In this document: positions 5,511 to 21,430 of the stretch, piece by piece
How the letters are laid out: the number at the start of each line of letters is the position of its first letter
How positions within the stretch are numbered: position 1 is the first letter of the stretch
NCBI RefSeq assembly: GCF_017876295.1
Contig: NZ_JAGINT010000001.1
Location: 2,604,001-2,668,000, forward strand
Direction of reading: 5' to 3'
From: Kribbella aluminosa
Lineage (GTDB): Bacteria; Actinomycetota; Actinomycetes; Propionibacteriales; Kribbellaceae
DNA length: 64,000 nt
Translations under genes and position numbers: made by a program
Notes under the pieces: generated by a model
What the model was told of the DNA's origin: nothing
The model's input: only the letters and a program-made list of their open reading frames with translations
The model's database searches: none

Positions 5511-6521
5511 GTGCTGGAGACTTCGCAGCGGCTGTTGAGCCTCCTCGCGCTGTTGCAGACGCGCCCCGCCTGGACCGGTACCGAGCTGGCGGTGCGGCTC
5601 GAGGTGACGACGCGGACGGTGCGCAACGACATCGATCGGCTGCGCGAGCTCGGGTACCCGGTCGATGCCGCGCGCGGTCCGGCCGGGCACTACCGGCTCG
5701 GGGTTGGTGCCAAGCTGCCGCCGTTGCTGCTCGACGACGAGGAGGCGGTCGCGGTGGCGGTGGGTCTGCGGACGGGTGCCGGCGTCGTCGGTATGGCGGA
5801 GAGCAGCCTTCGGGCGCTGACCAAGCTCCAGCAGGTACTGCCGCATCGGCTGCAGCGGCAGGTGAACGCGATCAACGACGCGATGACGGAGGGGCCGGAG
5901 AACACCCGCTCGAACATCGATCCCCCCGAGATCGACACAATCCTATTGTCGACAATCGCCGCGTGTATTCGGGACGAGCACTACCTCCGGTTCGAGTACG
6001 CCGTACCGGAAGGGGACTCGCTCTACAAGGCCGGATCGAGTACGACCCAGGACCTGCCGATCCTCGTGGAGCCGTACCGGCTGGTGAGCTGGCACGGGTA
6101 CTGGCATCTGGTGGCGCGGGACGAGGCGGGGGACTGGCACACGTACCGGGTCGACTGGATGTCGTTGCGGATGGCAACGGGTCGGAGGTATCGGCCGCGG
6201 CCGATGCGGGCCGACGAGTACGCGGATTTCGTACTGCGGGACGTGGCGTCGGCGGGGTGGAAGGTGCATGCGCGGATCACCGTGTACGCGCCGGCGCAGG
6301 AGGTGCTGTCGCGGATCCACGCGGCGGTGGGGATTGTCGAGTCGGTCGACGAGCGGACCAGCGTGCTCGTCACCGGCGCGGACTCGTTCGAGCTGATCGC
6401 CGTGTACATCGGGATGCTGGGCCTCGACTTCCGCGTCGACGAACCGCCGGGGTTGGTCGCGCACCTCGAGACCGTCGGAAAGCGGTACTTGACGGCGATC
6501 GGCGTACCGAAGAACGGGTAG
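5511..6521 (+). CDS. YafY-type WYL-domain transcriptional regulator
   Basis: A 336-residue protein from GTG 5511, six bases after AGGAG. Residues 1-60 form a DeoR-like winged helix (LLSLLALLQTR, then TVRNDIDRLRELGYPV). The WYL domain (~160-225) contains LRFEY and VEPYRLVSWHGYWHLVA, the region that senses small ligands in this family, followed by a C-terminal WCX region. Divergent placement from the epoxide hydrolase suggests it governs that gene and itself. The coding sequence carries a perfect ATTGTCGACAAT palindrome at 5945-5956. Confidence 0.88.
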   Translation: MLETSQRLLSLLALLQTRPAWTGTELAVRLEVTTRTVRNDIDRLRELGYPVDAARGPAGHYRLGVGAKLPPLLLDDEEAVAVAVGLRTGAGVVGMAESSLRALTKLQQVLPHRLQRQVNAINDAMTEGPENTRSNIDPPEIDTILLSTIAACIRDEHYLRFEYAVPEGDSLYKAGSSTTQDLPILVEPYRLVSWHGYWHLVARDEAGDWHTYRVDWMSLRMATGRRYRPRPMRADEYADFVLRDVASAGWKVHARITVYAPAQEVLSRIHAAVGIVESVDERTSVLVTGADSFELIAVYIGMLGLDFRVDEPPGLVAHLETVGKRYLTAIGVPKNG

Positions 6522-6571
6522 TGGTGGTGGTAGCACGGCTGCGGGCGGCGGGGAGTGGGCGAATCTGGGGA

Positions 6572-7219
6572 CTACTGCCCGTCCTTCGGTACGCCGAGGC
6601 CGGCGTTGCGGGCTTGGATGATGGCGTTGGCGCGGTCGGCGGTGCCCAGTTTGGTGAAGATCGTGGAGACGTTGTTGGCGACGGTCTTCGGGGCGAGGGC
6701 CAGACGGGTGGCGATCGCGGGGTTGGAGAGCCCGGCGGCGAGGAGGTCGAGGATTTCGCGTTCGCGGGTGGTGAGTTCGGGGAACGGGTCGGTGGGGGGC
6801 GGGGCGGCGAAGAAGGTGAGGACGCGGCGGGCGACGCCGGGGCCGAAGATGGCTTCGCCGGCGGCGACGGCGCGGATGGCGCGGGCTATTTCCTCCTGTT
6901 CGGCGCCTTTCACCAGGTAGCCGCGGGCGCCGGCGCGCATGGCGGCGAAGACCGAGTCGTCGTCCTCGAACATGGTGAGGACCAGTACGGCGACCTCGGG
7001 CGCCGCGCGGGCAAGTTCGCGGGTGGCGGCGAAACCGTCGAGGTCGGGCATTTGCAGGTCGAGTACGGCGACGTCGGGGTGGGTGGTGACGACTTCGCGG
7101 ATCGCTTCCCGGCCGGTTGCGGCGACGCCGACCACCTCGATGCCGGGGAGTGAGGTCAGCAGGGCCGCCAGGCCGGCGCGTACGACGGGGTGGTCGTCGG
7201 CCAGGACAACTCGGATCAC
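6572..7219 (-). CDS. NarL/FixJ-type response regulator
   Basis: A 215-residue regulator from GTG 7219. The receiver domain has acidic D8/D9, phospho-acceptor D54 (AVLDLQMPD) and K104 (GYLVKG). A LuxR-type helix-turn-helix (LTTREREILDLLAAGLSN, ~148-165, and VANNVSTIFTKLG) forms the output. The start overlaps the kinase stop by 4 bases (GTGA), so kinase and regulator are one operon and almost certainly a cognate pair. The targets are unknown; autoregulation through the palindromes upstream of the kinase is plausible. Confidence 0.92.
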   Translation of the reverse strand: MIRVVLADDHPVVRAGLAALLTSLPGIEVVGVAATGREAIREVVTTHPDVAVLDLQMPDLDGFAATRELARAAPEVAVLVLTMFEDDDSVFAAMRAGARGYLVKGAEQEEIARAIRAVAAGEAIFGPGVARRVLTFFAAPPPTDPFPELTTREREILDLLAAGLSNPAIATRLALAPKTVANNVSTIFTKLGTADRANAIIQARNAGLGVPKDGQ

Positions 7220-9327
7220 CGCACCTCCAACGGGACGGAAGCGGCGGCGGGGAGGGGGAAGCGGGCTTGGATTTGGCCGCCGGTGGGGGTTGGGCCGGCG
7301 GTCAGCGTGCCGCCCAGTTCGGCGGTGCGGTCGTGCATGGCTTGGAGGCCTACGCCGGGGTGCCAGACGCCGTTGGCGCTGCCGTCGTCGGTGATCTCGA
7401 TTTCGAGTTCGGTTCCGCAGCGGAGGGACAGTACGGCGGAGGTCGCCGAGGCGTGACGGACCACGTTGGTCAGGGCCTCTGTCGCGATTCGGTACGCGGC
7501 GACCTCCAACGCGGCGGGCAGCGGCGGCAGGCTGTCGGTGGTGACCGTGACTCGGATCGGAGCGCCGTCGGCGCGGAACGACAGCTGGTCGGCGCGTTGT
7601 CGCAGGGCGGCGATCAGGCCGAGTTCGTCGAGGGCCGGCGGGCGGAGGTCGTCGACCAGGCGGCGTACGTCGGTGATCGCCGAGCGGGTGTCGGCACGCA
7701 ACCGGGCGAGCAGTTCGACGGCTCGCGGGGTGTCGGTGGTGATGAGGTTGGCGGCGGCGTCCGCTGCGAACGCCACGCCCGTGAGCGTCGGCCCCAGTCC
7801 GTCGTGCAGATCGCGCCGCAACCGCCGTCGCTCCTCCTCGCGCGCCGACACCAGGTTCTCCCGCGACGTCTGGAGCTCCGCCGACAACCGGGTCGCGTGT
7901 ACTGCCACCGCCAGCGGTACGGCGACCAGCGCGAGCACGCTCCGGTCCGCCGACGACAACCCGGCCTCGCCCGAGCGCGTCCCAACCTCGAGGAGCCCGA
8001 GTACCTGCCCGCCGTACGAGAGTGGTACGACGGAAACCCCCTCCGCCGTCGGGCCGCTCGCCCCGTCGCCGGGGTCTACCGGCCCCGGGCCGGGGTCGAC
8101 CGGTTCGGACCCGGGGTCGACCGGTCCGGGGTCGAGCGAGGGCCGGGTGCCATGCGGGGGCCGGGTGTCGTGCGAGGGTGGGATGCCGTCCGAGGCGATC
8201 AGCCTGCCGTCTACTCGCAGGGCGGCGTACGGCAGGCGGAGTGCCGAGCGGATCGCGGCGACCACGCCTGGCAACCCGGCGGACAGTTGCGAGCCGACCC
8301 GGGATGCGACCCGCGCCGGGTCGTTGCGGTCGCCGTACAGAGCGCGGTCGACGAGTTGCTGCAGGCGCGGCAGCACCGGCGCGATGATCAGCGCGACGAA
8401 TACCGTCACCGCGGCCGAGCGGCCCACCTGTGACGCGATCAGCGAGTCGAGCACCGCGACCAGCGCGGCATAGATGCCGATGGCAACCAACGACAGGAGC
8501 GCCCAGGTCAGCGCGCGGGAGACCACCAGGCGGATGTCGAGGAGCTGGTACCGGACGATCGCCACCGCGACGGCGATCGGGATCAGCGGGATCGCCAGCA
8601 GTACGAGGATCGGCGTACCGGCGACGAATGCCCACGGGGTGACGAACAGCAGGGCGATCACCGATGCCAGGAGCAACCACAGCAGTTGCCGGCGGCCGGG
8701 TTCGTCGGCGCGGCGGTAGCGGATCGCGAGGCAGACCAGGGCGAGCAGGAGCGCGGCCAGGTTGCGTACTTCGGTCGCGGTCCACAGCGGCTGCAGCGCG
8801 TCGAACCGTGGGATTGTCAACAATCCGCGGGGCAGTTCGGGGGAGACCGGCTCGCCACTGCCCGCCATCTCGAGGACGAAAAGCGGCGAGGTCGCGATGA
8901 TGCCGATCGCGGCCCAGCGCCAGCGTGGTGACAACAACCGGCCGTCCGGGAACAGCAGCAGCGCGAGGGGCAGGAACAAGCCGATCGACCACGGCCAGGC
9001 GGTCAGCGAGACGGTGACGAATGCCTGTTGTACGACGTGGTCGTGCACCACATGAGCCAGGGCGTCGGCGACCGGCGTTGTCGCGTGCCCGATGCCGTCA
9101 GCGAGGAACAGCCAGCCGATCGGGTTGGCCGGGCGATGCCAGGCGATGACCGCGCCGCAGAGGCCGAAGGTCAGACCCATCAGCCCGTTCGTCACGACGA
9201 AGTTGTCGACAAGTTGCTGCCAGCCCCAGCCGGCCGAGACGCCGTACGCGACGGCGAAAACCACCTCGACCACGACCAGCGCGGCGAGCGCGCCGGCCAG
9301 GCCGCGGCGGTTTCCGGAGGTTGCCAT
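7216..9327 (-). CDS. Membrane sensor histidine kinase (HisKA_3 family)
   Basis: A 703-residue protein; I start at ATG 9327 (MATSGNRRGLAGAL) because the first membrane helix follows and the open frame farther upstream lies antisense to other genes. About nine hydrophobic segments fill the first ~320 residues. A GAF-like segment (~360-480) contains a low-complexity linker of repeated 'VDPG' units (nt ~8060-8150). The HisKA_3 dimerisation helix has RRDLHDGLGP with phospho-acceptor H508, and the HATPase_c end shows EALTNVVRHA and GVGLQAMHDR. It passes phosphate to the overlapping response regulator. The many membrane helices suggest sensing of a membrane or hydrophobic cue (inference). Confidence 0.88.
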   Translation of the reverse strand: MATSGNRRGLAGALAALVVVEVVFAVAYGVSAGWGWQQLVDNFVVTNGLMGLTFGLCGAVIAWHRPANPIGWLFLADGIGHATTPVADALAHVVHDHVVQQAFVTVSLTAWPWSIGLFLPLALLLFPDGRLLSPRWRWAAIGIIATSPLFVLEMAGSGEPVSPELPRGLLTIPRFDALQPLWTATEVRNLAALLLALVCLAIRYRRADEPGRRQLLWLLLASVIALLFVTPWAFVAGTPILVLLAIPLIPIAVAVAIVRYQLLDIRLVVSRALTWALLSLVAIGIYAALVAVLDSLIASQVGRSAAVTVFVALIIAPVLPRLQQLVDRALYGDRNDPARVASRVGSQLSAGLPGVVAAIRSALRLPYAALRVDGRLIASDGIPPSHDTRPPHGTRPSLDPGPVDPGSEPVDPGPGPVDPGDGASGPTAEGVSVVPLSYGGQVLGLLEVGTRSGEAGLSSADRSVLALVAVPLAVAVHATRLSAELQTSRENLVSAREEERRRLRRDLHDGLGPTLTGVAFAADAAANLITTDTPRAVELLARLRADTRSAITDVRRLVDDLRPPALDELGLIAALRQRADQLSFRADGAPIRVTVTTDSLPPLPAALEVAAYRIATEALTNVVRHASATSAVLSLRCGTELEIEITDDGSANGVWHPGVGLQAMHDRTAELGGTLTAGPTPTGGQIQARFPLPAAASVPLEVR

Positions 9328-9344
9328 ACCCGAAGTGTGCTCCC

Positions 9345-9378
9345 GGAACGTTCCCGGCGTCTCGGGATCGCGATCCCG
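9345..9378. promoter_or_regulatory. Two palindromes in the divergent promoter region of the kinase operon
   Basis: GGAACGTTCC (9345-9354) and the 16-bp perfect palindrome CGGGATCGCGATCCCG (9363-9378) lie between the kinase start (9327) and the membrane-protein operon (9482). Position suggests operators for one or both operons; no regulator is assigned. Confidence 0.45.
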
Positions 9379-9481
9379 GATCCGGCGGGGGACTGCCTGC
9401 GCCGGAGGGATCCGGTCCCCGGGCGGCGCCGGTTCCGGGACCGCACTGTGGTGCCGAACCACGACACAAGGGGGTAAGGAG

Positions 9482-9826
9482 ATGTACAGATTCGGTTTGG
9501 TGCTGCTGGGGTTGCTCGCACTCGCGGACCTCGCGTCGCCGCTCATGACGGACGGGGAGCACCCGCCGATGAGTATCGCGATCGGGTCCGCGGTCATCGG
9601 GCTGATCAGCCTGGCGCTGGTCGGTCTCGCCTGGCGGGGGAAGCGGTGGGCGCTCGCGCCGCTGATCACGTTGCGCCTGGCGTCGGCGTTGCTCGCAGTA
9701 CCGGCGTTCTTCGCGTCCGGCGTACCTGCGGTTGCGGTCGCCGCCGCCGGGATCGGTGTTGCGGCGACGGTTGTCGGCGTGATCGCAGTACTGCTGCCGA
9801 AGCGCGTGCTGGCAGGTGCGCGATGA
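9482..9826 (+). CDS. Small integral membrane protein
   Basis: A 114-residue hydrophobic protein with four predicted membrane helices (for example FGLVLLGLLALADLASPL and AVAAAGIGVAATVVGVIAVL). ATG 9482 follows a clean AAGGAG site. The stop overlaps the next start (ATGA), so the two membrane proteins form an operon, read divergently from the histidine kinase. The family is not recognised, and no catalytic motif is seen. The shared control region hints that the pair may be a target or accessory of the two-component system. Confidence 0.75.
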   Translation: MYRFGLVLLGLLALADLASPLMTDGEHPPMSIAIGSAVIGLISLALVGLAWRGKRWALAPLITLRLASALLAVPAFFASGVPAVAVAAAGIGVAATVVGVIAVLLPKRVLAGAR

Positions 9827-10521
9827 CTCAGGAAACAGCACAGACGACCAGCGGTACGTCGGCGCACGCGGACATCCGGCCCGTCTGGAGGTGGGTGGCG
9901 GCGGTGATCCTGCCGATCGGGCCGGCGGCGGTGGCGCTGCTGCGGTTCCTGCTCCCGTACAACACGGCTGATGACTCGTCGACAATCGTCAATAAGATTG
10001 TCAACAATCTGGATCGCAGTTCGTTGGTGATCTGGTTGACCTACGTCGCGATTCTGACGTTGGTGCCGGGTGTGTACTTCGTGGGGCGGCTGACTCGGCG
10101 CAGTACGCCGTGGCTGACCGGGATCGCTGTGTTCCTGATGGTTCCGGGGTATCTGTCGTTGCCTTGGACGGCGAGCAGTGACGTCTTCACGTGGGCGGCC
10201 GGGACTGCCGGTGTCGACCAGGCGTCGATCACGAAGATCGCCGAGGTTTCGCACGGCTCGGTGAGCCTGGCCGGGTTGGTGTTCGTGGTTGGGCATGTGC
10301 TCGGGACTGTGCTGCTCGGGATCGCGATGTGGCGTTCCGGGGTGGCTGGCCGGTGGGCTGCGGTGGCGGTGGGGATCTCGCAGCCCCTGCATCTGACGTC
10401 GGTCATCATCAGCAGTCATCCGCTGGATCTGGTCGGTTGGGGGCTGCAGGCAGTCGGATTCGCCGCGGTGGGGTGGGCGATTGTCCGGATGTCGAACGAC
10501 GAGTGGCAGCCGGTTCGATGA
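9823..10521 (+). CDS. Multi-pass membrane protein, unknown function
   Basis: A 232-residue protein coupled by ATGA to the preceding small membrane protein. A polar N-terminal tail (~22 residues) is followed by about six hydrophobic segments, such as VAAVILPIGPAAVALLRFLL and LAGLVFVVGHVLGTVLLGIA. It resembles DUF-type actinobacterial membrane proteins with a conserved histidine between helices (SHGSVSLAG). No function is assigned. The loop SSTIVNKIVNNL is encoded by a near-palindromic ATTGTCAACAAT (9997-10008), one of the recurrent motifs of this region. Confidence 0.72.
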   Translation: MTQETAQTTSGTSAHADIRPVWRWVAAVILPIGPAAVALLRFLLPYNTADDSSTIVNKIVNNLDRSSLVIWLTYVAILTLVPGVYFVGRLTRRSTPWLTGIAVFLMVPGYLSLPWTASSDVFTWAAGTAGVDQASITKIAEVSHGSVSLAGLVFVVGHVLGTVLLGIAMWRSGVAGRWAAVAVGISQPLHLTSVIISSHPLDLVGWGLQAVGFAAVGWAIVRMSNDEWQPVR

Positions 10522-10570
10522 GCTGGACCCGGGCTCGGCGTTACGCTCGGCGTACTGAAGGGGGAGCGGT

Positions 10571-11539
10571 ATGGGCGAGGTAACGGGCGGGCCTGGGTTC
10601 GTCACCGAGCGCGGGAGTTTCCGTGCCGCGCATGTGGCGGATCAGAACGTCGAGCGTCAGGCGTTCGTGCTGGATCAGGTGGCTGGGCGTCCTGCGGTGC
10701 GGGCGTTGAAGGCGTGGGCGCTTGAGCAGTTGGCGCCGGCGGCGGGGGAGACGGCGGTCGACGTCGGCTCGGGTATGGGGGAGGACGTGCTCGCGTTCGC
10801 GACGTACGGCGCCCGTGCGATCGGCGTCGAGCCCAGCCCCGGCCTCCGAGCCGAGGCAGCCCGACGCACGGGCCGGGCCGAGGCAGGACGACGCGCGGCC
10901 GGGGCCGAGGCAGCACAATGCGCGGCTGGCGCCGAGGCGACGCTACGCGCGGCCGGGGCCGGGGCGGCATTACGCGGGGCCGGGGCCGAGGAGGTGCGGC
11001 GTGCGCCGGCGTCGGGCGCCCCGGAGGGCGTGGAGTTTGTCGACGGGCGGGCTGAGAGGTTGCCGTTCGAGGATGCGTCCGTGGATGTGGTGCGGTGTGA
11101 GCGGGTGTTGCAGCACGTTGATGAGCCGGGGGATGCGGTGCGGGAGATCGCTCGGGTGCTGCGTCCGGGTGGGCGGGTTGCGTTGATCGACACCGACTGG
11201 GGTACGTCGATCATTCACCCGGCGGACCCCGACGTACTGCAGCGCATCGTCGACTACTTCCGCGGTGAGACCGCCAATCCGTACTCGGGCCGCCGGCTCC
11301 GCGGGCTGCTCGTCGACGCCGGGCTTGAGATCACCGGTGAGACGGCCGCGACCTGGATCGAGCCGCAGGACGGCGCCACGACGGGCTTTGTCGGCATGAT
11401 GCACACGACCGCGGCCCGGGCCGGCGTGATCACCGACGCCGAGGCCGCGGCGTTCACCAAGACGCTAGGGGACGCGGCTGAGCGCGGCGTCTTCCATATG
11501 TCCCTCACGATGTACGCGGTCAGCGCTCGCAAGCCGTGA
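10571..11539 (+). CDS. SAM-dependent methyltransferase with internal nonapeptide repeats
   Basis: A 322-residue class I methyltransferase from ATG 10571 after GGGGGAG. Motif I is DVGSGMGED (64-72) and the acidic end of strand beta-2 is GVEPSP; ERLPFEDASVDVV and the HVDEP/EIARVLRPGGRV segments are the usual motifs of the ubiquinone/arsenite-type methyltransferase group. Between beta-2 and beta-3 (residues ~97-146) sit five near-copies of a nine-residue unit rich in Ala, Gly, Arg and Glu, encoded by a 27-bp tandem repeat, which the fold does not need. The substrate is unknown. Its 3' end overlaps the convergent EamA gene by 75 bp. Confidence 0.85.
   Translation: MGEVTGGPGFVTERGSFRAAHVADQNVERQAFVLDQVAGRPAVRALKAWALEQLAPAAGETAVDVGSGMGEDVLAFATYGARAIGVEPSPGLRAEAARRTGRAEAGRRAAGAEAAQCAAGAEATLRAAGAGAALRGAGAEEVRRAPASGAPEGVEFVDGRAERLPFEDASVDVVRCERVLQHVDEPGDAVREIARVLRPGGRVALIDTDWGTSIIHPADPDVLQRIVDYFRGETANPYSGRRLRGLLVDAGLEITGETAATWIEPQDGATTGFVGMMHTTAARAGVITDAEAAAFTKTLGDAAERGVFHMSLTMYAVSARKP
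10859..11008 (+). repeat. 27-bp in-frame tandem repeat inside the methyltransferase gene
   Basis: Five degenerate units translate as RRTGRAEAG, RRAAGAEAA, QCAAGAEAT, LRAAGAGAA and LRGAGAEEV. The period is exactly nine codons, so copy-number changes keep the frame. The insertion lies between the nucleotide-binding strands. Confidence 0.85.
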
Positions 11540-12385
11540 ACGGCGCGGCCATTGCACGACCAGTACCGCGGACAGCACCAGCGCGCCGCCGAACCACTGC
11601 GGCGCGGTGAGCTTCTCGCCGAACATCCAGGCCGCCGCGACCACTGTCACGACCGGCTCGAAGATCGACAGGATCGACGCGACCGAGGCGCCGACCTGCG
11701 CCATGCCGGCGAAGAACAGCAGGATCGCCGCGACCGTGCTGATCACTGCCACCGCGGTCAGCCACAACCAGCCGATCGGTGCGAACCCGAAGTCTGTGCC
11801 GCCGCGCAGGAACCCCAGTAATACAAAGGTTCCGAACGCCCCGGTGCAGACCAATGCACTCAGCGCGAGCGGCGGTACGTCGACCGAGTCGCCGACCAGG
11901 ATGTACCCGGTGTAGACGATCGGCGCGCCGAGTGCGAGCAGTAGCCCGGACCAGTCGAAGTGGCCGGACAGCGCGCCGCTGAGCACCAGGCCGATCCCGA
12001 GCAGTGCGATCACCAGCGCGGCCACCCGGCGCCGCGAGGCGGCCTCGCGGCGCAGCGCGATCGCCGTACCCATGACGAGGACCGGGTACAGGTACAGGAT
12101 CAGCGCGACCAGCGACGCGTCGATCCTGGCGAGCGCGGAGAAGTAGAAGGTCGACTGCGCGGCGTACCCGAAGGCGCCCATCGCGAGGCCGGTGAGCACG
12201 ACCCGGCGCGGCAGGTTGCGGAGTGCGCCACGGGCGAGCGCGATGCCTAGCAGCAGTACCGCGGCGAGGCCGAACCGGACGAGCAACAGCGCGTCCACGG
12301 ACACGCCCGCGCCGTACGCGAGCTTGCCGAACACGGCCATCACGCCGAAGGCGGCGGCGGAGAGAAGGCAGAAGAGGCGTCCCAC
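11465..12385 (-). CDS. EamA/DMT-superfamily exporter
   Basis: A 306-residue protein from ATG 12385 with ten hydrophobic segments in two EamA repeats (residues ~1-135 and ~140-275). The second repeat ends in IFEPVVTVVAAAWMFGEKL, the typical EamA signature around helix 9. Members move amino acids, purines or other metabolites across the inner membrane. It is divergent from a LysR regulator across a 78-bp gap with two perfect inverted repeats, the standard arrangement of a LysR-controlled exporter. The C-terminal tail overlaps the convergent methyltransferase gene. Confidence 0.9.
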   Translation of the reverse strand: MGRLFCLLSAAAFGVMAVFGKLAYGAGVSVDALLLVRFGLAAVLLLGIALARGALRNLPRRVVLTGLAMGAFGYAAQSTFYFSALARIDASLVALILYLYPVLVMGTAIALRREAASRRRVAALVIALLGIGLVLSGALSGHFDWSGLLLALGAPIVYTGYILVGDSVDVPPLALSALVCTGAFGTFVLLGFLRGGTDFGFAPIGWLWLTAVAVISTVAAILLFFAGMAQVGASVASILSIFEPVVTVVAAAWMFGEKLTAPQWFGGALVLSAVLVVQWPRRSRLASADRVHREGHMEDAALSRVP

Positions 12386-12404
12386 GACATCGATGGTCCG
12401 ACCA

Positions 12405-12451
12405 GTGAACCGTTCACGTCCATCACGGCTTCACGGACAGCATCGTGAAGC
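12405..12451. promoter_or_regulatory. Two inverted repeats between the EamA exporter and LysR genes
   Basis: GTGAAC-C-GTTCAC (12405-12417) and GCTTCACG-N8-CGTGAAGC (12428-12451) are both perfect. The second contains a T-N11-A-like LysR box. They fill the divergent gap and are the probable LysR binding and activation sites. Confidence 0.65.
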
Positions 12452-12463
12452 TAAGCTGAACGA

Positions 12464-13375
12464 ATGATGGATCTGCATCGGCTTCGGCTGCTGCGTGAGG
12501 TGCACGGCCGCGGCACAGTGCACGGAGCGGCCCGCGCGCTCGGATATTCGCCCAGCGCGATCTCGCAGCAGCTGGCCGTTCTGGAGCGCGAAGCCGGTAC
12601 GCCGTTGCTCGAGCGGGTCGGCCGCAACGTACGGCTGACCGCGGCGGGCGAGGTCCTGGTGCGGCACGCGACCGCGCTGCTGGAAGGTGTCGAGGCGGCC
12701 GAGGCGGAGCTGGCGGCGGTCGCGGCCGGACGGGTCGCCGGGGTGGTGCGGATCGGGGCGTTCCAGTCCGCGTTCATCCGGGTCGTCGCGCCGGCGATCC
12801 GCAGCCTCGCGGGGACACATCCCGACATCCGCGTGCAGGCCACCGAGCTGGAGGTCGAGCAGGCCGCGCCCGCCTTGCGGATGCAGCAGCTGGACGTGAT
12901 GGTCGGCGACGAGTACGACGGCCAGCCGCGCGCCGTCCACACCGACCTGCATCGCGAGCACCTGCTCCGCGAACAGATCAGCGTCGTTCTGCCGGAGGAC
13001 CATCCGCTGGCCGCCAAGCGCCGGGTCCCGGTCGAACAGCTGAGGGAATTGCCCTGGGCGGCCTGTCAGCCAGGCACCGGGCACCGCGAGATGCACGTCC
13101 GCGTCTGCCGCGAGCTGGGCGGGTTCGAGCCCGACATCCGCTACAGCTCCGACGACTTCCGCATCCTGCTGGAGCTCGTCCGTACGACGGGTGCCGGGGC
13201 GCTCCTCACGGACCTGGCCCTCGGCGCCGGTGCGCCGGGTGTCGCCGTACGCCTGCCGGCCGAAGGCGATGTCGGTCGGGCGGTCTTCCTGCTGACCCGC
13301 CGTACCCGAACTCCTGCGGTCGCGGCGGTCGCCGATGCGCTGGCGGCCGCGGCCACTGATCAGACCAGGTCGTGA
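12464..13375 (+). CDS. LysR-family transcriptional regulator
   Basis: A 303-residue regulator starting at ATG 12464 or 12467. The N-terminal helix-turn-helix (LHRLRLLREVHGRGTVHGAA, then ALGYSPSAISQQLAVLE) is followed by the substrate-binding fold, in which QISVVLPEDHPLA is the usual hinge-region strand. It faces the EamA exporter and probably activates it when a metabolite binds. The 3' end overlaps the convergent DHFR-fold gene by 16 bp. Confidence 0.9.
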   Translation: MMDLHRLRLLREVHGRGTVHGAARALGYSPSAISQQLAVLEREAGTPLLERVGRNVRLTAAGEVLVRHATALLEGVEAAEAELAAVAAGRVAGVVRIGAFQSAFIRVVAPAIRSLAGTHPDIRVQATELEVEQAAPALRMQQLDVMVGDEYDGQPRAVHTDLHREHLLREQISVVLPEDHPLAAKRRVPVEQLRELPWAACQPGTGHREMHVRVCRELGGFEPDIRYSSDDFRILLELVRTTGAGALLTDLALGAGAPGVAVRLPAEGDVGRAVFLLTRRTRTPAVAAVADALAAAATDQTRS

Positions 13376-13911
13376 CGGAGCAGGACTGTCCGATTGTCGA
13401 AAGTACGATTGTCGACAAGCCGCAGGGTGCGGCGTTCGGTGGGCTGGTGGACGGGCTTACCGCCACCGAGGATCACCGGGTGCACGATGACGTGGTATTC
13501 GTCGAGCAGCCCTCGTGCGGTCAGTGCCGCCGCGACGCTCGCGCTCCCGGTCAGCAGGATGTCCTTGCCCGGCTGCTCCTTGATCGCCTCGAGCTCGTCG
13601 GCGGCCCGGATGATCCGGGTGTTCCAGTCGGCGGATTGCAGGGTTGTCGACAATACGATCTTCGACGTCCGTCGCCAGACCGGTGCGAACTCGATCGCGT
13701 GCTGATCCGGGTTCAGCGCCTCGGCGTTCGGCCAGTACGACGACATCATTTCCCAGACCGTCCGCCCGTACAGGAACAGGTCGGCGCGCTCGGTCAGCCC
13801 CATCGAGTACGCGCCGAGTTCCGGGCCGAGCTCGGCCCAGTCGAACTCGCCGTTCGGCCCCGCGATGAAGCCGTCGAGCGACTGGTGCACGTAGTACATG
13901 ATCTTCCGCAT
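13360..13911 (-). CDS. DHFR/RibD-fold reductase
   Basis: A 183-residue protein from ATG 13911 after GGAGGA. The N-terminus IMYYVHQSLDGFIAGPNGEFDW and the phosphate-binding segment ILLTGSASVAAALTARGLLDEYHVIVHPVILGGG match the YwjB/RibD C-terminal-like group of NADPH-dependent reductases. Actinomycetes carry many such paralogues of unknown substrate; another lies at 15651. Two perfect TTGTCGACAA palindromes (13409-13418 and 13644-13653) fall inside the gene in different codon frames. Confidence 0.88.
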   Translation of the reverse strand: MRKIMYYVHQSLDGFIAGPNGEFDWAELGPELGAYSMGLTERADLFLYGRTVWEMMSSYWPNAEALNPDQHAIEFAPVWRRTSKIVLSTTLQSADWNTRIIRAADELEAIKEQPGKDILLTGSASVAAALTARGLLDEYHVIVHPVILGGGKPVHQPTERRTLRLVDNRTFDNRTVLLRHDLV

Positions 13912-14253
13912 GGTGTCCTCCGGGTGACGGCCGCTTGTGCCTCCTGGTCGGAGGCGGTTGCCCGGAATTGACACGCGTCAGCCGATCCAGCCCAAACTGC
14001 TGACGGTGTCCGTCGTCGGCTTGACCTCGCAACCAGCCACCACCTTGCCGAGGGGGATTGACGAAACCGCCTGGGCTTGGGAGATTCGGAGGGGAACGGG
14101 CGGGTCTGGGGGAGGACCGGCCGCTCGTCGGGGGTCCAGTTGCTCTCTGGGGTGAAGTCTTCGCGCTGTGCTCGACGGTGACGCCGGTCTGCGCGGTGTA
14201 CGCGGTGACGTGTACGCCGTTCTGCGACAGAACTTGTACAGGGGAGCGGGCGC
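13912..14253. other. 342-bp gene-free region upstream of the FAD-linked oxidase
   Basis: No credible gene is seen; open frames here are extensions of shadows. It holds a GCCTCC-N5-GGAGGC repeat at 13939-13955 and, next to the downstream start, GTTCTG-CGA-CAGAAC (14219-14233) followed by the palindrome TGTACA. These are candidate control sites for the oxidase gene. A TTGACA at 13969 lacks a matching -10. Confidence 0.5.
14219..14233. promoter_or_regulatory. Candidate operator before the FAD-linked oxidase
   Basis: GTTCTG-CGA-CAGAAC is a perfect 6-bp inverted repeat that ends about 20 bases before ATG 14254, where a repressor would block transcription or translation. No regulator gene is adjacent in the right orientation. 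Confidence 0.4.
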
Positions 14254-15612
14254 ATGATCGAGAACCTGCGGGAACGCACGCGGGGACAGGTCTTCGTAGT
14301 GGGAGACGAGGAATACGACGCGGCGCGCCGTGTCAACAATTGGATGATCGACAAACGACCGCAGGTGATCGTCCGGTGTGAGAACACCGGTGACGTGATG
14401 GCGGCGATCGACTACGCGCGGACGAACGACCTGGAGATCGCCGTCCGCGGCGGCGGGCACAGCGTGCCCGGCTTCGGTACGGTCGACGACGGACTGGTCA
14501 TCGACCTGAGCCCGATGCGGAACGTCCGGGTCGACCCGGTGACCCGGACGGCGCGGGCCGGCGGCGGCGCGACCTGGGGCGACTTCAACGCGGCGACGCA
14601 CGCGTTCGGGCTGGCGACCACGGGCGGGATCATCTCCACGACCGGTGTCGGCGGGCTGACCCTCGGCGGCGGGATCGGGTACCTGGCGCGGGGGCTCGGG
14701 CTGTCCTGCGACAACCTGGTGTCGGCCGACGTGGTGACCGCGGACGGGCGGTTCCTGATCGCCAGCGAGAAGGAGCACGACGACCTGTTCTGGGCGCTGC
14801 GCGGCGGTGGCGGCAACTTCGGCGTGGTGACCGCGCTGGAGTTCCGGCTGGCACCATTGTCGACAATCTACGGCGGCCCGATGTTCTTCGAGCTGTCCGA
14901 CGCGGCCGCCGTACTGGCCGGGTTCCGGGACCTGATCATGGACGCGCCCGAGCAGCTCGGCGGGTTCCCGGCGTTCCAGATCGCGCCGCCGCTGCCGTTC
15001 ATCCCGGAGGACCGGCACGGCGAGCCGTTCGCGGCGATCGTCGGCTGCTGGGCGGGAGACCTGGACGAGGGTGAGGCGCAGATCTCGAAGTTCCGGGAGC
15101 TGGCGCCGGTGATGGCCGAGCACGTCGGCCCGATGCCGTACCCGGCGCTGAACAGTGCCTTCGACGCACTGGTACCGCCCGGACTGCAGCACTACTGGAA
15201 GGCGAACTTCGTCACCGAGCTGACCGACGAGGCGATCCAGGCGCACCTGCGGCACGCGCCGGGCCTGCCGGCGGTGAACTCGACCGTGCACATCTACCCG
15301 ATCAACGGCGCCTGCCACCGGGTCACCCCGGACGCGACCGCGTTCGCCTACCGGGACGCGAACTTCGCGACCGTGATCGCCGGCATGTGGCCGGATCCGG
15401 CGCAGAACGAGGCGTCGATCGACTGGGTTCGGTCGTACTACGACGACATCGCACCGCACTCCGAGGCCGGCGGGTACATCAACTTCATGGCCGGCGACGA
15501 CCAGGGCCGGATCCGGGACAACTACCGGCAGAACTACGACCGGCTGGCGGAGGTGAAGCGCAGGTACGACCCGGACAACGTGTTCCACCTGAACCAGAAC
15601 ATCGTGCCCTGA
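14254..15612 (+). CDS. FAD-linked oxidoreductase (PCMH/BBE type)
   Basis: A 452-residue protein from ATG 14254 after GGGGAG. The N-terminal PCMH domain holds RGGGHSVPG with H69 as the likely covalent FAD attachment, then GVGGLTLGGGIGYLARGLGL and the LFWALRGGGGNFG segment. The C-terminal berberine-bridge-like segment ends YDPDNVFHLNQNI. Such enzymes oxidise sugars or secondary metabolites with oxygen. Unlike reticuline-oxidase types no obvious second Cys attachment is evident, so FAD may be singly linked (inference). There is no signal peptide. A strong bidirectional hairpin follows the stop. Confidence 0.88.
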   Translation: MIENLRERTRGQVFVVGDEEYDAARRVNNWMIDKRPQVIVRCENTGDVMAAIDYARTNDLEIAVRGGGHSVPGFGTVDDGLVIDLSPMRNVRVDPVTRTARAGGGATWGDFNAATHAFGLATTGGIISTTGVGGLTLGGGIGYLARGLGLSCDNLVSADVVTADGRFLIASEKEHDDLFWALRGGGGNFGVVTALEFRLAPLSTIYGGPMFFELSDAAAVLAGFRDLIMDAPEQLGGFPAFQIAPPLPFIPEDRHGEPFAAIVGCWAGDLDEGEAQISKFRELAPVMAEHVGPMPYPALNSAFDALVPPGLQHYWKANFVTELTDEAIQAHLRHAPGLPAVNSTVHIYPINGACHRVTPDATAFAYRDANFATVIAGMWPDPAQNEASIDWVRSYYDDIAPHSEAGGYINFMAGDDQGRIRDNYRQNYDRLAEVKRRYDPDNVFHLNQNIVP

Positions 15613-19927: not shown

Positions 19928-21430
19928 ATGGACTACGGCCACGAGCTGGTCTTCGGCACGTTCCTGACCCCCGCGGTCGACGCCCCGGACCGGGTGATCG
20001 CGCTGGCCCAGCTGACCGAGCAGGTCGGGCTGGACCTGGTCAGCTTCCAGGACCACCCGTACCAGCCCCGGCTGATGGACGCGTGGACGCTGCTGTCCGT
20101 CGTCGCCGCGCAGACCGAGCGCATCAAGGTGACCACCAACGTTGCCAACCTCCCGTTGCGGCACCCGGTCGTCCTGGCGCGCAGTGTCGCGACACTGGAC
20201 CTCATCACGGGCGGCCGGGTGGAGCTCGGGCTAGGCGCAGGCGGCTTCCTGGAGGCGGTGGCGGCGAACGCGGGGCCACGGCTGACGACAGGGCAGAGCA
20301 TCACCGCTCTCGAGGAGGCCATCGCGATCATGCGCGAGGTCTGGACGCCTGGAGCCGGTGGGATCCGGCTCGAGGGCAAGCACTACACCGTGGCCGGCGC
20401 CAAGCGCGGCCCGGCGCCCGCGCACGACGTGTCGATCTGGTTGGGCGCATACAAGCCGCGGATGCTGGCCCTGACCGGACGGCTCGCCGACGGCTGGCTG
20501 CCGAGCAGCGGGTACGCCGGGCCGGACGAGCTGGCTTCTATGAACAAGGTGATCGACGAGGCGGCCGTAGACGCCGGCCGGGACCCAGCGGCCGTACGGC
20601 GGCTCTACAACGTCGCCGGCCAGTTCAATGGGCGTGGCGGGTTCCTGCAGGGGCCAGAGGAGCTGTGGATCGACCAGCTGACCGAGCTGACGCTGGGCGA
20701 GGGCATCAGCACGTACATCCTTGCCTCTGACAACCCTGACGACATCAGGCGCTTCTCTGAGGTTGCAGCAGGCGTACGTGAGGCTGTGGCGATCGCACGG
20801 TCGGGTGCAGTCGTCTCTCCAGCTCCGGTGTCCAGCTTTGGCGTCGTACCGACACCACCTCCTGCTGTACGGCGGAGCGCAGTACAGCTGCTGGACGAGG
20901 CGGAGCGGCCGACCGGGCCGGCGCAGGACCCGTCACGGACGTACACGCCGTACCAGCTGCAGTCGGGGCAGCACCTGATCGATGTGCACGACCACCTGCG
21001 TGCTGAGCTCGAGCAGGTACGTGACCTGGTGGAGCAGGTCGCGGCCGGGACGCTCGGGGTCGGTGCGGCGCGGTCACACATCAACACGATGACCATGCGG
21101 CAGAACAACTGGACGCTGGGCACGTACTGCGAGTCGTACTGCCGGCTTGTCACGACGCACCACTCGCTGGAGGACGCGTCGCTCTTCCCGCACCTCCGGC
21201 GCGCCGACCCCGCTCTGGCGCCGGTGGTGGACCGGCTGCAGGAGGAGCACAAGATCATCCACGACGTGCTGGAGGGTGTCGACAAAGCGCTGGTCGCGCT
21301 CGTAGACGGCTCAGGCAGCATCGACGGATTGCGCGCCGCCATGGACCTGCTCGACGACACGCTGCTCTCGCACCTGTCCTACGAGGAGCGAGAGCTGGCG
21401 GAGCCGCTGGCGCGGCTTGGGGTGCTGTAG
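19928..21430 (+). CDS. LLM-class F420-type oxidoreductase fused to a hemerythrin domain
   Basis: A 500-residue fusion from ATG 19928. Residues 1-~290 form a luciferase-like TIM barrel (FQDHPYQPRLMDAWTLL, LGLGAGGF, SIWLGAYKPRML) of the coenzyme-F420 type. After a Pro/Ser/Val linker (~295-345), residues ~350-495 form a hemerythrin four-helix bundle with His/Glu ligands in DVHDHLRAEL, THHSLEDASLFPHL, EEHKIIHDVLEG and HLSYEERE. The di-iron site may sense or store O2 for the flavin-like reaction. The fusion suggests an oxygen- or NO-gated oxidoreductase; the substrate is unknown. Confidence 0.87.
   Translation: MDYGHELVFGTFLTPAVDAPDRVIALAQLTEQVGLDLVSFQDHPYQPRLMDAWTLLSVVAAQTERIKVTTNVANLPLRHPVVLARSVATLDLITGGRVELGLGAGGFLEAVAANAGPRLTTGQSITALEEAIAIMREVWTPGAGGIRLEGKHYTVAGAKRGPAPAHDVSIWLGAYKPRMLALTGRLADGWLPSSGYAGPDELASMNKVIDEAAVDAGRDPAAVRRLYNVAGQFNGRGGFLQGPEELWIDQLTELTLGEGISTYILASDNPDDIRRFSEVAAGVREAVAIARSGAVVSPAPVSSFGVVPTPPPAVRRSAVQLLDEAERPTGPAQDPSRTYTPYQLQSGQHLIDVHDHLRAELEQVRDLVEQVAAGTLGVGAARSHINTMTMRQNNWTLGTYCESYCRLVTTHHSLEDASLFPHLRRADPALAPVVDRLQEEHKIIHDVLEGVDKALVALVDGSGSIDGLRAAMDLLDDTLLSHLSYEERELAEPLARLGVL

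Follow-up and report, generated by a model that had tools for sequence, protein, structure and literature searches.

The 64,000-nucleotide stretch of the Kribbella aluminosa genome analyzed here (contig NZ_JAGINT010000001.1, positions 2,604,001 to 2,668,000; hereafter the window) carries several copies of a palindromic 10-mer, TTGTCGACAA, and of its variant TTGTCAACAA, all lying inside genes between 5.9 and 14.9 kb. This work concerns these sites and their candidate reader, a GntR-family regulator whose gene (gntR) is located outside the window. The source genome comprises 8.94 Mb in two contigs. The sites, their host genes and gntR are as follows; no strand is assigned to the sites.

5511..6521, plus strand: WYL-domain regulator gene (HTH_11 and WYL domains), host of the 5946 site
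5946..5955, no strand: TTGTCGACAA (ATTGTCGACAAT in full), in the WYL-domain regulator gene, codon frame LSTI
7216..9327, minus strand: histidine kinase gene (HisKA_3 domain; start from our own gene caller), host of the 8814 and 9203 sites
8814..8823, no strand: TTGTCAACAA (GATTGTCAACAATC in full), in the histidine kinase gene
9203..9212, no strand: TTGTCGACAA, in the histidine kinase gene, second codon frame
9895..10521, plus strand: DUF4386-like gene (Pfam match below the cut-off; model from our own caller), host of the 9998 site
9976..9985, no strand: TCGTCGACAA, near-match with one mismatch, 22 bp ahead of the 9998 site
9998..10007, no strand: TTGTCAACAA (GATTGTCAACAATC in full), in the DUF4386-like gene
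13360..13911, minus strand: RibD_C/dihydrofolate reductase (DHFR)-like gene, host of the 13409 and 13644 sites
13409..13418, no strand: TTGTCGACAA, in the RibD_C/DHFR-like gene, with the half-site-like TTGTCGAAAG 15 bp ahead
13644..13653, no strand: TTGTCGACAA, again in the RibD_C/DHFR-like gene, in a codon frame unlike that of the 13409 site
14254..15612, plus strand: FAD-binding/BBE oxidase gene, host of the 14857 site
14857..14866, no strand: TTGTCGACAA (ATTGTCGACAAT in full), in the FAD-binding/BBE oxidase gene, codon frame LSTI
C2:3815221-3815880 (contig C2), minus strand: gntR gene, outside the window

The coordinates that an earlier note on this DNA had given for five exact TTGTCGACAA and two TTGTCAACAA copies were all correct, and, as it had judged by eye, the 64 kb holds no further exact copy of either. 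The note had spoken of five proteins; the exact copies fall in four (the WYL regulator, the histidine kinase, the RibD_C/DHFR-like protein twice, and the FAD/BBE oxidase), and the fifth host, the DUF4386-like protein, comes in through TTGTCAACAA. The TCGTCGACAA near-match at 9976 may be a member of a degenerate array or a chance occurrence.

The sites are far more frequent than expected by chance. Copies with no or one mismatch numbered nine in the window, compared with a mean of 1.0 in dinucleotide shuffles, none of 100 of which reached nine. In 300 synonymous-codon shuffles of the window genes, the 10-mer occurred 0.07 times on average (maximum 2) versus five observed, and the 10-mer with a central R occurred 0.15 times (maximum 3) versus seven. 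Dozens more TTGTCGACAA copies were found elsewhere in the genome, in clusters, giving 84 in all, compared with 4 for the reversed control. Markov models of order 1 to 6 built on a 400-kb sample predicted 3 to 14 genome copies, and the codon shuffle of the sample (348 kb of it coding), scaled to the genome, predicted 8.0; the sample itself held four copies, with a codon-shuffle mean of 0.35 and a maximum of 3. TTGTCAACAA was present in 44 copies on both strands, versus 4 for its control, and many of these were within the TTGTCGACAA clusters. The whole-genome count, which the earlier note had proposed to set against a codon-preserving shuffle, is thus well away from the shuffled expectation (84 versus about 8). 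The note was also right that selection acts on the DNA and not on the protein.

Alignment of 90 sites gave the full motif GATTGTCRACAATC, with weaker outer half-sites, GACAATC/GATTGTC, at 15 bp. A catalogue of 77 sites was then assembled from the window and 20 stretches picked for holding sites, with genes called by our own simple caller. Coding sequence holds 69 of the 77, compared with a coding fraction of 0.88 for the same stretches, and promoters were not preferred. Two codon frames, as the earlier note had noticed in the window, account for 46 and 23 of the sites, with the third used by none of the 69; the other eight lie between genes. Judged by eye from the protein starts, the host genes include sugar ABC transporter, lyase, other secreted-enzyme, polysaccharide-synthesis, amidase and peptidase genes. 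Two or three coding sites apiece were seen in 8 of the 60 host genes (located in the window and in the loci L086, L088, L090, L092, L093 and L100), the richest being a lyase-like gene with three (L092:1588-4071).

One intergenic copy of the motif lies between gabT- and gabD-like genes, and the adjacent gntR gene was therefore proposed to encode the reader. Its product carries an N-terminal GntR winged helix-turn-helix (PF00392, E 6.9e-15, 54.9 bits versus a cut-off of 27) and a C-terminal FCD effector domain (PF07729, E 6.8e-15, 56 bits versus a cut-off of 24.3). Among the curated NCBIfam equivalogs, none scored over its cut-off for the regulator, the best being TIGR03338 (111.2 bits versus 271.5). 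The gntR gene probably shares its operon with an arylmalonate-decarboxylase/EutA-like gene and is adjoined by gabT-, gabD-, ProP- and ectoine-hydrolase-like genes. These neighbours match the NCBIfam models for ectoine hydrolase, EutA, gamma-aminobutyrate (GABA) transaminase and succinate-semialdehyde dehydrogenase, all below the cut-offs, so the substrate is only a guess. In 19 of 19 genus loci, ATTGTCGACAAT stands approximately 40 bp upstream of the EutA-like/gntR operon. In our judgment, GATTGTCRACAATC, with its core TTGTCGACAA, is very probably the operator of this FadR-type (FCD-domain) GntR regulator.

The distribution of the regulator gene and of the motif was compared across 38 Kribbella genomes. 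With a threshold of E < 1e-80 and at least 65% identity, a gntR ortholog was found in 19 of them, and the gap was clear (E <= 1e-82 versus >= 1e-36 for the next best). The strict 14-mer was present in all 19 gntR-bearing genomes and in one of the 19 gntR-lacking genomes (G007, two copies), which gives a Fisher p of 1.1e-9, not corrected for relatedness. Forward matches to ATTGTCRACAAT ranged from 4 to 50 in the gntR-bearing genomes; in the gntR-lacking ones there were none in 15, one each in G058, G019 and G010, and four in G007, and the only match of G002 was on the reverse strand. For the reversed control of ATTGTCRACAAT, one forward and two reverse matches were seen in G036 and none in the other 37 genomes. 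The 10-mer itself ranged from 1 to 84 copies in 37 genus genomes, with 14 to 84 in the 19 gntR-bearing and 1 to 21 in 18 gntR-lacking ones (G058 left out), and from 0 to 7 in 21 genomes of the same order.

The comparison was also made on an rpoB tree, on which gntR changed at least six times. Across six independent pairs, the strict 14-mer followed gntR in 5.8 of six on average and never went the opposite way (median sign-test p 0.031). One of the options raised in the earlier note was that the palindrome is the target of a regulator, and the FCD-domain GntR protein fits that role very well by the presence/absence match, the paired test and the operator position.

The motif was also found outside the genus. 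In the class, a gntR homolog (E <= 1e-35) was present in 41 of 394 genomes, the source genome included, and 22 of the 40 others were put through the motif search. All 22 had at least one ATTGTCRACAAT within 10 kb of gntR; they held one to six copies each, 47 of the total of 59 being within this distance, and 25 of the 26 sites examined were intergenic by our own caller. The nearness to gntR and the intergenic placement point to an ordinary local operator in these genera. The layout of the outer half-sites may differ between genera. Some of the operators in other genera (loci L275-L328) run on into a further GACAAT 7-8 bp away. Strict 14-mer matches occurred in other phyla too, among the matches listed in a scan of the genome collection.

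The position of the sites on the chromosome was then measured relative to gntR, single contigs being treated as closed circles. On five single-contig chromosomes, 58 of 62 strict 12-mers were within 0.7 Mb of gntR, compared with approximately 10 expected, and the remaining four were 0.9 to 2.3 Mb away. Inside the 0.7 Mb, the sites reached 605 kb downstream and 146 kb upstream of gntR; the spread was mainly downstream in four of the five chromosomes and mainly upstream in G035. For the source genome, the 65 strict 12-mers listed include 35 that are no more than 0.7 Mb from gntR, where 10 would be expected; 17 of these are no more than 0.1 Mb away. This listing ends at C2:3888014, and one further forward match must lie past that point, on the far side of gntR. 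A terminus domain was considered and disfavoured, as the sector is centred on gntR, with the terminus placed only by weak GC skew. A crude scan of the sampled loci, except L106-L224, for peptide motifs of DnaA, ParB, DnaN, GyrB and MnmG, as marks of the origin, found none.

The loss of gntR can be followed most closely in G007. An 18.7-kb block containing gntR, the gabT- and gabD-like genes and their neighbours is missing from this genome, and 2.4 kb stands instead between collinear flanks. By eye, the replacement (L407, G007:C4, about 262.5-264.9 kb) appears to hold a TetR-type regulator and an MFS transporter gene. Seven sites align with collinear flanks in G007, and none of the seven retains the same 10-mer. 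An island present only in gntR-bearing species was ruled out, since G007 retains collinear flanks over the 60 kb covered. The gntR-lacking G058 and G002 each keep one remnant 12-mer at a position where the source genome has a site, which suggests that those sites are older than the loss of gntR; the 12-mer of G010 had no ortholog among the sampled source-genome loci. Some intragenic sites are retained at orthologous positions in gntR-bearing species: 10 of 16 G012 sites examined had an orthologous stretch among the sampled source-genome loci, and of these ten, six had an identical 12-mer, one a central-base difference and three a decayed or not yet formed site.

The window sites were compared with up to 20 aligned relatives. 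The 10-mer of the 5946 site was absent from all 20, as was the 8814 site; the 9203 site was common to one of 20 (G013), and the 13409 and 13644 sites were each found in none of 12. At the 14857 position, ATTGTCGACAATC stands in the source genome, none of 10 relatives has the site, and four of the 10 have GGTGTCGACGATC. The 9998 position is shared more widely, six of 20 relatives having the palindromic form GATTGTCGACAATC. The alignments of these six are 71-77% identical and closer relatives are without the site, a pattern that may reflect either an ancient site that was retained or several separate gains. No site is present in the corresponding region of G058, which there ranks among the nearest relatives. 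The alignments are gap-free at the sites, save four of 20 rows at 8814, and the window sites are mostly species-specific gains by point substitution. A repeat unit or mobile element was ruled out as their origin because the site flanks differ, and methylation decay was ruled out by the transversions among the substitutions and by the dependence on gntR.

Taken together, we consider it likely that the sites are GntR operators that have multiplied in the coding sequences of Kribbella and are nearly absent where gntR is lacking. In other actinobacteria, GntR would be an ordinary local regulator with few intergenic operators beside its own gene. In Kribbella, the operator would also have been gained at dozens of coding positions via point substitutions and kept there by selection on DNA, chiefly within approximately 0.6 Mb of gntR and, in the source species, farther out too. 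We speculate that the intragenic copies are bound by a GntR dimer and, once occupied, either stop RNA polymerase or form bridges with one another. Without the inducer, which may be a product of ectoine- or GABA-like catabolism, those uptake, degradation and polysaccharide genes of the regulator's neighbourhood that are used only under certain conditions would thereby be damped. Nearness would count because a scarce regulator would reach its highest concentration around its own gene. The genome comparisons support three parts of this explanation, namely, selection on the DNA, dependence on the presence of gntR, and the operator position. That the role of the intragenic copies is transcriptional silencing is a possibility to which we give a little less than even weight, the remainder going to architecture, decoys or mixed roles. 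Somewhat more doubtful is the wider proposal that a local catabolic repressor has turned into a neighbourhood-scale silencer or organiser, with a halo of operators around its own gene that does not outlast the regulator or occur where it is missing.

Several observations weigh against the GntR-operator explanation. In G007, which lacks gntR, there are nevertheless two strict 14-mers and 21 10-mers in all; the 60 kb covered holds four 10-mers, one of which is TTGTCGACAA where the source genome has TTGTTGACAA. The gntR-lacking clade to which it belongs (G002, G007, G010 and G011) tops the 10-mer counts of the gntR-lacking genomes, with 14 to 21 copies, which we read as remnants of a recent loss of gntR. 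When the paired test was run at a cut-off of five forward 12-mers, it gave five of six (p 0.0625). Other genes of the gntR cluster, which are missing together with it in G007, may share the presence/absence pattern. Most of the window sites are private to the species, relatives differing by a few substitutions. The degree of conservation counted between G012 and the source genome is inflated, since the source-genome loci were chosen for holding sites. The other 30 of the 65 sites listed for the source genome, those of the window included, lie beyond 0.7 Mb or on the second contig, so nearness to gntR alone does not explain these. The window sites would be approximately 2.5 Mb from gntR if the contig ends join, a joining deduced from weak GC skew, by which the origin and terminus are only roughly placed. 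Moreover, the coding sites are unbiased in position along the genes (69 sites in 60 genes; thirds 19/30/20; Kolmogorov-Smirnov p 0.35). Such an even spread is unlike that of a promoter-proximal roadblock, and bridging or architecture fits it at least as well.

One alternative, which this even spread would suit, is that the motif is a chromosome-organising site of the MatP/matS, Noc or ParB kind, in which the intragenic copies, bound by GntR or another anchor, would hold a domain together without a direct effect on transcription. The motif is palindromic, its coding share is at chance, and on the five chromosomes nearly all sites lie in one sector adjacent to gntR. In contrast, half of the genus genomes lack gntR together with nearly all sites, the motif is an intergenic operator outside the genus, and the centre of the sector is gntR rather than the terminus as far as the weak GC skew places it. 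We regard this alternative as unlikely. The organising role that the earlier note had suggested may still apply to the intragenic copies, since they ignore gene boundaries and lie mainly in one sector, but that sector is centred on gntR. Disregard for gene boundaries, as well as the large variation of the sites among species, would equally be expected of decoys that titrate a scarce repressor and set its dose response while the host genes are unaffected. Titration, however, needs no nearness to gntR, and some intragenic sites are held at orthologous positions in other gntR-bearing species, which free-floating decoys do not need; decoys are accordingly considered improbable. A by-product of mutation or composition without function, for example through CpG deamination of TCGTCGACGA or through codon usage, could draw on the fact that TCGTCGACGA is a common 10-mer (17 in the 400-kb sample) from which transitions yield TTGTCGACAA. 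The codon shuffles nevertheless account for only about a tenth of the copies, transversions are among the differences from relatives, the copies follow gntR across species, and the same motif is conserved as an operator elsewhere, all of which make a by-product very improbable. A short palindrome that is patchy among species might also be the recognition site of a methyltransferase, a restriction system or a mobile element. Relatives differ by substitutions in nearly gap-free alignments, and copies lie near the regulator gene in every one of the 22 genomes searched in other genera; the methyltransferase option of the earlier note finds no support here, and we give this last alternative hardly any credence.

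The GntR-operator explanation was also compared with known systems. Like other FCD-domain (FadR-type) GntR regulators, the protein combines GntR and FCD Pfam domains with a short palindromic operator placed, by position only, in front of its own operon and close to catabolic genes nearby; unlike them, it has tens of extra operator-like sites in coding sequences around its gene. In the MatP/matS terminus domain, short palindromes occur both within genes and between them across several hundred kilobases of a single chromosome sector, a scatter that the present sites resemble. The sector here is centred on the regulator gene and, as far as the weak skew shows, not on the terminus, the sites follow the presence of that gene, and the protein family differs. 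HIP1 of cyanobacteria is likewise an over-represented palindrome in coding sequence that varies among species. Its sequence is different and its copies are far more numerous, whereas the present distribution is matched by a regulator gene. The relation between gene proximity and regulator distribution has reportedly been treated by Kuhlman and Cox in 2012 and by Pulkkinen and Metzler in 2013. The motif of DasR, a GntR-family regulator, is HutC-type and unlike the motif found here. DasR of Streptomyces coelicolor, an actinobacterial regulator of the GntR family like the present one, has been reported to bind inside biosynthetic genes too (PMC4398421). In the parts of that report consulted, neither a halo of sites around the dasR gene nor a loss of sites with the gene is described for DasR (PMC4398421). 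Literature searches with the motif letters and for intragenic binding sites of a Kribbella GntR gave no comparable case by title among the matches listed.

Intragenic binding of regulators is often dismissed as noise. Here, evolution provides a readout, since the intragenic sites are present in the species that bear the regulator, nearly absent elsewhere, and dependent on how far away that regulator is encoded. Two questions thus become testable in a soil bacterium: the function of operators within genes, and whether a bacterial regulator exerts its effect chiefly in the vicinity of its own gene. If the wider proposal of a halo is true, the sites would document in nature the reach of a scarce bacterial regulator away from its own gene, and the first turn of a local regulator towards a global one.

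Elsewhere in the window, at 19928-21430 on the plus strand, a single protein combines a luciferase-like monooxygenase with a C-terminal hemerythrin (HHE) domain.

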